A stretch of 64,000 nt of DNA from Olsenella sp. An293 (lineage in GTDB: Bacteria > Actinomycetota > Coriobacteriia > Coriobacteriales > Atopobiaceae): the NCBI RefSeq assembly GCF_002159495.1, contig NZ_NFIT01000004.1:124001-188000 (forward strand). Direction: 5' to 3'. Each line of letters begins with the position of its first letter. Position 1 is the stretch's first letter. Positions 61,182 through 63,744 of the stretch are shown one piece after another. The notes beneath the pieces were generated by a model. That model was not told the DNA's origin. It searched no databases and worked only from the letters and a program-made list of their open reading frames with translations. Made by a program: the position numbers and the translations under genes.

Positions 61182-61257
61182 TGGTGGGCGATGACGGGTT
61201 CGAACCGCCGACCTTGTGCGTGTAAGGCACCTGCGCTAGCCGCTGCGCCAATCGCCC
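61182..61257 (-). tRNA. trnV: tRNA-Val (TAC)
   Basis: 76 nt including encoded CCA (61182-61184). Acceptor GGGCGAT pairs with ATCGCCC, anticodon loop CTTACAC, T arm GGCGGTTCGAACCCGTC. One anticodon-stem pair is mismatched. Upstream TGGTAAACT (61268-61276, - strand) is an extended -10 box. Confidence 0.92.
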
Positions 61258-61310: not shown

Positions 61311-61316
61311 TATACT
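61311..61316 (+). promoter_or_regulatory. murE -10 box close to the start codon
   Basis: TATACT ends only six bases before the murE ATG (61323). If it is the -10 box, transcription begins at or beside the A of ATG and the mRNA is leaderless. No consensus -35 box precedes it. Confidence 0.45.
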
Positions 61317-61322
61317 GGAGGC

Positions 61323-62873
61323 ATGAACACGACTACGCTCACAGAGCTCGCCGGCGACCTTGCCGCCGCGGGCATCCTCTCCTCCCCCGCGCCGCGCGCA
61401 GACGTTGCCGTGACGGGCGCGTCCTGCGACTCCCGCGTCGTCTCCGCAGGGGAGCTCTTCGTCTGCAAGGGAGCCGCCTTCCGCCCCGCGTTTCTCGCGA
61501 GCGCCGTCGAGCGGGGAGCCGTCGCCTACCTCTGCGACGAGGCCCACGCCGCCGAGCTCGCGGACGTGGCTCCCGGCGTGCCCGCGCTCGTCACGTCCGA
61601 CCTGCGCCGCGCCATGGCGCTCTGCTCGGCCCGGGCCTTTGGTCGGCCGGACCGAGACCTCAGGACCGTGGGCATCACGGGCACCAAGGGAAAGACGACC
61701 ACCGCCTACATGCTCCGCTCGATCGTCGACGCCGCGTGCGGCGCGCGGTCGTGCGGGATGATCGGCACCGTCGAGACCTATGACGGCGTGGTCGACGAGC
61801 CGTCGAGAAACACCACGCCCGAGGCACCCGACCTCTGGCGCAACCTCGCCCACGCGCGCGACTCGCGCCTCTCCGCCCTCGTCATGGAGGTCTCGAGCCA
61901 GGCGCTCAAGTACGACCGCACCTTTGGCGTGGGGCTTGACGTCGCCTGCTTCCTCAACATCGGGCTCGACCACATCTCCCCCGTCGAGCACGCGGACTTC
62001 GAGGACTACTTCTCCTCCAAGCTCAAGATCTTCTCGCAGTGCGAGACCGCCGTCGTGAACCTCGACTCCGATCACGCGGACCGCATCCTCAAGGCCGCCT
62101 CCCGCGCGCCGCGGACCCTCACCTTTGGCATCGAGCGCCCCGAGGCGGACGCCTGGGCGGACGAGCTCGTCGCCTCCGAGGAGGGCGTGAGCTTCACCCT
62201 CCACCTGGACGGATGGGAGCGCCGCGTGGAGCTGCCCTTCCCCGGGAGCTTCAGCGCCTCCAACGCGCTGGCCGCCGCGCTCTGCGCGCACCTGCTGGGG
62301 ATTGGCCCCGAAGACATCGTCCGCGGCCTCGCCGCCACGCGCGTACCCGGCCGCATGGAGTTCTACCACTCGCGCGACCGGCAGCTCACCGCGATCGTGG
62401 ACTTCGCGCACAACCGGCTTGCCTTCGAGTCGCTCCTCTCGGCCGTTCGGGCGGCGTTCTCGGGCGCCCGGATCATCGCCGTCTTTGGCGCCGTGGGCGG
62501 CAAGGCGCAGGAGCGCCGCCACGAGCTGCCCAAGGCCGCGGCGCCCTTTGTCGACTACCTCGTCTTCACCACCGACGACCCCTGGACCGAGGACCCGCGC
62601 GACATCTGCCGCGAGATGGAGCGGGCGCTGCCGGACGGCTTCCCGCACGAGGTCATCATCGACCGCGAGGAAGCCGCGGCGCGCGCCTTCGAGCTGGCGG
62701 AGGGACGGCGCAGCGTGGTGCTGCTGCTCGCCAAGGGCCACGAGACGCGCATGCACATGCGCGACGGCTACGTGCCCTGCCTCTCCGACGGCGAGCTCGC
62801 CCGCCGCGGCATCGCCGCGCACGACCGGGCGCATTCCGCAGACGCCGACACCGACGCCCCCAGCGCCCGCTGA
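61323..62873 (+). CDS. murE: UDP-MurNAc-tripeptide synthetase (MurE ligase)
   Basis: 516 aa Mur ligase that adds the third peptide residue to the peptidoglycan precursor. The P-loop is GITGTKGKTTTAYM (about residues 118-131); NTTPEAPDLW, MEVSSQALKYDRT and VDFAHNRLAFESL follow. The specificity loop reads DDPWTEDP instead of the DNPR typical of meso-DAP enzymes, so another diamino acid (Lys or Orn) is likely. GGAGG lies only one base from the ATG. Confidence 0.9.
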   Translation: MNTTTLTELAGDLAAAGILSSPAPRADVAVTGASCDSRVVSAGELFVCKGAAFRPAFLASAVERGAVAYLCDEAHAAELADVAPGVPALVTSDLRRAMALCSARAFGRPDRDLRTVGITGTKGKTTTAYMLRSIVDAACGARSCGMIGTVETYDGVVDEPSRNTTPEAPDLWRNLAHARDSRLSALVMEVSSQALKYDRTFGVGLDVACFLNIGLDHISPVEHADFEDYFSSKLKIFSQCETAVVNLDSDHADRILKAASRAPRTLTFGIERPEADAWADELVASEEGVSFTLHLDGWERRVELPFPGSFSASNALAAALCAHLLGIGPEDIVRGLAATRVPGRMEFYHSRDRQLTAIVDFAHNRLAFESLLSAVRAAFSGARIIAVFGAVGGKAQERRHELPKAAAPFVDYLVFTTDDPWTEDPRDICREMERALPDGFPHEVIIDREEAAARAFELAEGRRSVVLLLAKGHETRMHMRDGYVPCLSDGELARRGIAAHDRAHSADADTDAPSAR

Positions 62874-62874
62874 G

Positions 62875-63744
62875 ATGTCCTCCCCCGCGCTCATCGGCAT
62901 CGTCGCGGGCGAGCACGACCGTGCCGTCGCCTCGACGATGCTGCGCTGCGCGCTCGAGCGCGGGGAGCCCTACGCCCACGTTGGCGTGATCGGCGACCAC
63001 GAGGTCTTTGATGGGGTGGAGTATCGGCGCGGCGCCGATGCCGCCGCTGATCTCGAGCGCATCGACGAGCACCTCGCCAACGCCCGCGCGGCCGGCCTCT
63101 CCCATCTCGTGCTGGGGCTGCCGAGCCGCGTCCCGGGAGGCCCCGACCTCCCCGAGCTCGACATGCTCTGCTCGATTGGGGCCGGCGGTGCCGGGACGGT
63201 GCGGACCGCCGAGCGCGGGCTGAGCTTCTCCTCGCGCGGGCCGCTCGCCGACGTGGGCTCGAGCGAGGAGCGTGCTGGCTATGGCTACGTGCAGTTTGTT
63301 GCTCACACGCCCTCTTGGGAGGGAGGCGTCGCCGTGCCCCTGCCCGGCGTCTTCAACGTGACGCCCGCGCTCGCCGCCATCACGGTCCTCGAGCTTCTGG
63401 GCGTACGCGGCCGCGAGGTCCAGGAGGGCCTCTGCATGGCCGCGACCCAGGGCCACGGGGAGCTGCTCTTCCCTCCCGAGCAGCACGTCTGCGCCGTCGT
63501 CGAGCAGAGCCGCGACCCGCGGGACCGCCGCCAGATCGTCGAGGCCGCCCGTCAGGAGTTCGAGGGCTTCTCCACGGAGGTCGTCACGGAGCTCGCGGGG
63601 ATCGAGCCGGCCGTCGCGCGCGGCCACGCCCGGGCGAGAAGCACGTTGCTGGTTCTTCTCGGCCGGCCCGGCGAGGCCTACGCCGACGCCTTCCAGGCCG
63701 CGGTCCGCCGTCACTTTGCGTGGAGCACGCCACCACGGGGCTGA
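62875..63744 (+). CDS. MurE-like paralogue lacking the ATP-binding P-loop
   Basis: 289 aa, starting one base after murE. LSHLVLGLPSRV, VPLPGVFNVTPALAAITVLE and AATQGHGELLFPPEQHVCAV line up in order with MurE blocks LSALVMEVSSQA, LPFPGSFSASNALAAALCAH and AATRVPGRMEFYHSRDRQLT. The first domain and the GKTTT loop are absent, so it cannot bind ATP in the usual way. It may be a regulatory or structural pseudo-enzyme. The assignment rests on visual alignment. No strong ribosome-binding site: translation probably depends on murE. Confidence 0.65.
   Translation: MSSPALIGIVAGEHDRAVASTMLRCALERGEPYAHVGVIGDHEVFDGVEYRRGADAAADLERIDEHLANARAAGLSHLVLGLPSRVPGGPDLPELDMLCSIGAGGAGTVRTAERGLSFSSRGPLADVGSSEERAGYGYVQFVAHTPSWEGGVAVPLPGVFNVTPALAAITVLELLGVRGREVQEGLCMAATQGHGELLFPPEQHVCAVVEQSRDPRDRRQIVEAARQEFEGFSTEVVTELAGIEPAVARGHARARSTLLVLLGRPGEAYADAFQAAVRRHFAWSTPPRG

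Follow-up and report, generated by a model that had tools for sequence, protein, structure and literature searches.

The closest described relative of the protein reported here, which some gut bacteria encode immediately after murE, is MurE itself (TIGR01085), in the form that we call type B of the Atopobiaceae, which shares its middle and C-terminal fold and is its nearest kin in our tree. Unlike MurE, the protein, referred to below as the pseudoenzyme, lacks the N-terminal domain, the P-loop, the carbamylated-lysine segment, the DDP loop and the KGHE motif. MurT, a subunit of isoglutaminyl synthase, also has a Mur_ligase_M fold and is catalytic together with GatD. The profile of the pseudoenzyme orthologues matches MurT 9sq9 weakly in sequence (E 0.038), NCBIfam matches to the 16 orthologues include no MurT family at E values as high as 1, and the genome from which our window derives (the window being the whole stretch of 64,000 nucleotides analysed) has its own MurT besides the pseudoenzyme. 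In that genome MurT and GatD are apparently fused, in a single 729-aa frame of contig C12 (L005:1-2187, minus strand), the first part of which matches MurT and the second part GatD.

A MurE fold can also become a subunit of another complex: according to an excerpt of PMC12681378, PAP11 is a MurE fold serving as a peripheral subunit of the plastid RNA polymerase. It aligns to our model of the pseudoenzyme with a Z of 21.9 (VIA-align), and differs from the pseudoenzyme in being a plant protein of 768 to 774 aa that belongs to an RNA polymerase complex. Presumably, PAP11 is also not encoded beside an active murE. Mur enzymes are themselves known to interact, as an excerpt of PMC6420597 describes for the MurE-MurF fusion of Bordetella pertussis and MurG, and the same excerpt treats it as an open question whether Mur ligases act as part of a larger complex (PMC6420597). 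We found no literature on a MurE-like pseudoenzyme of this kind among open-licence papers, so that its novelty is provisional.

The locus and its likeness to MurE

The pseudoenzyme gene directly follows murE (Table 1), which is the single place above the MurE cut-off in the window's genome; the five other Mur_ligase_M places of this genome are MurD, MurF, MurC, MurT and FolC. Upstream, and divergent from murE, lie tRNA-Val, an RNase PH gene and a Ham1-family gene. On the 3' side of the orthologues, the next ORF is convergent in 6 of the 8 loci listed, and a same-strand YhbY-domain gene in the remaining two, including the window; genes for an iron alcohol dehydrogenase and a HAD-type hydrolase are found near the pseudoenzyme in the loci checked. 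The window's MurE also matches phrog_16655, of unknown function (PHROGs, E 8.5e-15), and to judge by this match some phages carry a Mur-ligase-like protein.

Table 1. Features of the murE-pseudoenzyme locus (positions in the window)
Feature	Coordinates	Strand	Basis
Pseudoenzyme gene derived from murE, encoding just the middle and C-terminal domains of a Mur ligase; 289 codons (289 aa), ATG at 62875, stop ending at 63744	62875..63744	+	ORF, BLASTP, orthologues, selection, model
murE type A, 516 aa, with GTKGKTT, MEVSSQALK, DDPWTEDP and AKGHE	61323..62873	+	motifs, MurE cut-off
TATACT, -10-like box, 6 bases 5' of the murE ATG (probable promoter)	61311..61316	+	promoter role inferred
TGAGATG junction: murE stop (TGA), one base, pseudoenzyme start (ATG)	62871..62877	+	sequence
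tRNA-Val(tac), divergently oriented neighbour upstream, bounding the locus on the left	61182..61257	-	sequence

The motif TATACT-N6-ATG (61311-61325) has a single occurrence in the window (mean in shuffled sequences, 0.03), and the same spacing precedes murE in 27 of the 30 genomes of the genus that were examined (G015, too short, was left out); in the three misses a GTG start had been chosen for murE. A leaderless mRNA carrying both murE and the pseudoenzyme gene, with TATACT as its promoter, is probable. The original prediction held that the gene is coupled in translation to murE; a single base between the murE stop and the ATG is the placement expected in that case, and the pseudoenzyme would then be made from the mRNA of MurE.

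Pfam detected no Mur domain in the pseudoenzyme, and its NCBIfam matches were to MurE and MurF only, far under the cut-offs (for TIGR01085, 11.4 bits against a curated cut-off of 257.3). BLASTP aligned it to the adjacent MurE with 30% identity over 120 aa (E 3e-9), and the profile of the 16 orthologues, searched against PDB sequences, found MurE 8g6p (E 2.8e-6), followed by MurF chains (E from 4e-5 upward) and by PAP11 (E 0.044). The structure predicted with AlphaFold (14 sequences; mean pLDDT 83.3, pTM 0.79) had MurE as its best Foldseek match (E 1.9e-11), on which it superposed loosely (TM by query 0.62, rmsd 6.1). With VIA-align, 267 of the 289 residues were aligned to M. tuberculosis MurE 2xja_D (Z 23.8, rmsd 2.8), and since the aligned part of that chain is residues 144-532, the N-terminal domain is absent from the pseudoenzyme. 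As modelled, the protein corresponds to a MurE reduced to its middle and C-terminal domains, the predicted structure matching a Mur ligase over most of its length. It had been claimed from the outset that the product keeps MurE blocks in order and has lost the first domain and GKTTT: the BLASTP and profile matches and the nearly full-length fold match bear out the order, profile and fold searches place the protein inside the Mur fold and not outside it, and the two losses are real.

The motif GTKGKTT of MurE reads GEHDRAV in the pseudoenzyme, and none of the 16 orthologues has GK(T/S) at this position, so that the P-loop GxxGK(T/S) is missing. The N-terminal UDP-MurNAc-binding domain is missing as well, the match starting in the middle domain of MurE. 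Further losses relative to MurE are TTPE, MEVSSQ-LK, about 40 aa around DHIS, GRME (replaced by GH in all 16 orthologues), D-AHN, the GGKA-ERR/DDP loop and KGHE. Absence of the carbamylated-lysine segment, D(D/N)P and KGHE was seen in 7 orthologues aligned with MurE, and in the alignment of the 16 orthologues. Set A2 contains P0001 and 13 of the 15 other orthologues, and set A3 contains G135, described below, and 12 of the 16. We take the P-loop, the carbamylated lysine, DDP and KGHE to be the catalytic motifs of MurE, and on these sequences the pseudoenzyme is very probably inactive as a catalyst.

Distribution and selection

Orthologues are present in 16 of the 31 genomes of the genus, the window's genome included, and lacking in the other 15. 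All 16 lie directly behind murE, starting between 8 bases before and 9 bases after its end; the pair is conserved across these genomes. Their frames, of 282 to 315 aa, are open in every case: an apparent internal TAG in G002 and TGA in G007 each turned out to be the gene's own terminal stop. For G012 the sequence reaches no further than 346 bases behind murE. The genus is probably Thermophilibacter, because the coding DNA of 13 of the 16 orthologues is identical to that of named records, which belong to Thermophilibacter mediterraneus, T. gallinarum, strains filed as Olsenella, and Atopobiaceae/Atopobium MAGs. Searches of the family (140 genomes) and of the order (395 genomes) added one further case, G135, which gives 17 of 395; as they considered at most 17 and 6 candidates per genome, respectively, and the order-wide search went to E values up to 1e-30, more distant cases may be missed.

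Is the pseudoenzyme gene maintained? In 15 of the 120 possible pairs, mostly close ones by choice, the NG86 dN/dS was below 1 throughout, at 0.24 to 0.47 in 12 pairs and 0.55 to 0.64 in the 3 most distant; the YN00 estimate was 0.06 to 0.11 in 3 of the 15. Neutral evolution was simulated for 8 pairs, and in each of them none of 1000 simulations kept as many identical residues as observed. Between 33 and 83% of the simulations per pair were free of any stop, so that open frames alone are weak evidence. Over the 16 orthologues, 56 alignment columns are invariant. Constraint on the pseudoenzyme is looser than on MurE: its NG86 ratio exceeds that of MurE in 13 of the 15 pairs, and in the 12 type-A genomes mean identity is 0.54, versus 0.77 for MurE. 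Two segments are conserved at or near the level of MurE, namely the AHTPSW block (0.69 versus 0.67) and the C-terminal helix DAFQAAVR (0.66 versus 0.72).

Neither frame decay in relatives nor a neutral pattern of substitution, the marks of a pseudogene, was seen; the gene encodes an enzyme homologue without catalytic motifs that is under purifying selection, as expected of a pseudoenzyme. That it derives from MurE and is under selection is, in our view, practically certain.

Origin of the reduced gene and a second reduced MurE

In a tree of 40 MurE and the 16 orthologues, the latter form one clade (100/100) inside type-B MurE (98/95), a clade that includes the MurE of three other genera of the family; the exact place of the orthologues among type-B MurE is weakly fixed (96/78). 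The type-A clade (100/100) comprises the window's MurE and 20 others of the genus. The two types differ at about 45% of residues, and orthologues stand behind a type-A murE in 12 genomes and behind a type-B murE in 4. A copy of the neighbouring murE is therefore rejected, since the tree groups the pseudoenzyme with type B whereas its neighbour in the window is of type A, and the 'tandem paralogue' of the original prediction does not survive in that sense. The two types, which alternate within the genus, carry DDPWTEDP (A) and EEDPAHD (B), and their alternation possibly reflects a change of the added diamino acid.

On an rpoB tree of 29 of the 31 genomes (G012, whose best rpoB match looks foreign, and G020, which has no full rpoB, were omitted), the presence of the pseudoenzyme requires 4 changes and the MurE type 6. 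The rpoB of G012 lies on contig C47, beside other rpoB pieces, and has a far higher score and a longer stretch than in congeners; this assembly is probably contaminated. Distances between pseudoenzymes follow those of rpoB with a Spearman coefficient of 0.77 (0 of 2000 permutations as high). For MurE of the same 16 genomes the coefficient is 0.26 (42 of 2000 permutations as high), a low value that is due to exchange of the MurE type: in the 12 type-A genomes only, MurE follows rpoB at 0.84, and the pseudoenzyme at 0.73. As the pseudoenzyme tracks rpoB and MurE does so less, it seems that the reduced gene is the resident and that exchange has affected the murE preceding it. In a likely course of events, a second murE, of type A, would have been acquired beside the ancestral type-B gene, and the type-B copy thus released would have been kept for binding.

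The second case, G135, belongs to another genus (g51) and comes from an assembly that is 68% complete. Its reduced MurE of 329 aa (L125:2719-3705), like the pseudoenzyme, has lost the N-terminal domain, the lysine of the P-loop (which reads GGSGVST), the segments with the lysine and with DHIS, and the greater part of the DDP loop; unlike the pseudoenzyme, it sits in murE's own place and retains GRME and NALAA. Its upstream neighbour is common to all 4 congeners, and the next downstream ORF to 2 of the 4. No murE lies beside it, and none above the MurE cut-off was found in this 68%-complete assembly, the other Mur_ligase_M places being MurF, MurD, MurC and MurT. The same TATACT-N6-ATG precedes the gene, and its product starts with METAPSH, as compared with METTLSH in G131 and G132; this retention of promoter box and first codons points to an origin in place.

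A tree that included G135 (19 of the 40 MurE of the larger tree plus 7 of 8 newly added, G091 missing) joined its protein to the orthologue clade weakly (69/87, with a long-branch warning), and constraining it with the MurE of its own genus was not rejected (p-AU 0.38). Over the 51 columns that separate orthologues from MurE, G135 shares the state of the orthologues in 6 and that of g51 MurE in 23; over the 41 columns by which g51 MurE can be told from the remaining type-B MurE, its residue is that of g51 in 14, that of the others in 12 and neither in 15. Selection on the G135 gene is inseparable from selection on MurE in the comparison made. The G135 gene was probably reduced in place, independently of the orthologues of the genus discussed above.

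Possible functions

With its ATP and UDP-sugar sites gone, the pseudoenzyme can hardly ligate, and the kept fold, with conserved strands and C-terminal helix, suggests a binding role: it would neither bind ATP nor ligate, and act by binding. The presumed co-expression with MurE makes a partner from the Mur pathway the first guess, and the likeliest role would be that of a non-catalytic subunit or scaffold paired with MurE, or else with another cell-wall enzyme of the cytoplasm (MurF, MurG or MraY). From the sequences we would give even odds to a Mur-ligase pseudoenzyme that acts by protein binding in the Mur pathway. The fuller proposal, of a 'Mur pseudoligase', a dead Mur ligase which tunes or scaffolds the cytoplasmic peptidoglycan pathway, comes from a displaced murE and arose at least twice in one family, is put forward tentatively.

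The original prediction saw in the protein a plausible partner or regulator of MurE, which it may be, but several points speak against a partner strictly specific for MurE. The pseudoenzyme is found beside both MurE types, which makes strict pairing with one MurE unlikely, and 15 of the 31 genomes do without it. No convincing change in MurE tracks its presence: the three MurE columns that differ with it all fall within C-terminal stretches that are variable, in species that are not independent of one another.

The protein might instead have acquired a function outside cell-wall synthesis, as a MurE fold recruited into an unrelated complex, for which the murE operon would merely ensure steady expression. 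The fold match to PAP11, the loss of the UDP-MurNAc and ATP motifs, and the persistence of the pseudoenzyme while the MurE type upstream changes would all fit. However, in all 16 genomes the gene still follows murE immediately, although murE has been exchanged, and we regard this scenario as rather unlikely. A functionless, decaying remnant of the displaced ancestral murE would account for the lost ligase motifs, an evolution faster than that of MurE and the absence from 15 genomes, but is very unlikely: decay is rejected on the strength of the 16 open frames, the dN/dS values below 1 and the neutral simulations, and the predicted fold is confident.

Patchy presence, fast evolution and a kept fold are also what one would expect of a protein that serves as a decoy or for immunity, by binding an inhibitor or a foreign factor directed against MurE. 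This is highly improbable, given the 56 invariant columns; moreover, the pseudoenzyme has no match in PADLOC or PHROGs, a scan of viral contigs, which can detect close relatives only, yielded none, and on the same results a mobile or defence origin was rejected. Finally, the protein might be a small enzyme that is active but uses the Mur fold for a different chemistry, to which invariant polar residues (D15, H66, C99, H144, H194, E210 and D271, among others) might be ascribed. This is barely credible, as the P-loop, carbamylated-lysine, DDP and KGHE motifs, with the roles we assume for them, are absent and type-B MurE already has some of these invariants, H144 of AHTP for instance.

If the binding role in the Mur pathway is correct, a dead MurE whose only remaining task is binding would indicate where the binding surface lies, and would make a Mur complex testable. 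Moreover, it would be a clear example of the gene of an essential enzyme living on as a non-catalytic protein, repeated, probably independently, in another genus.
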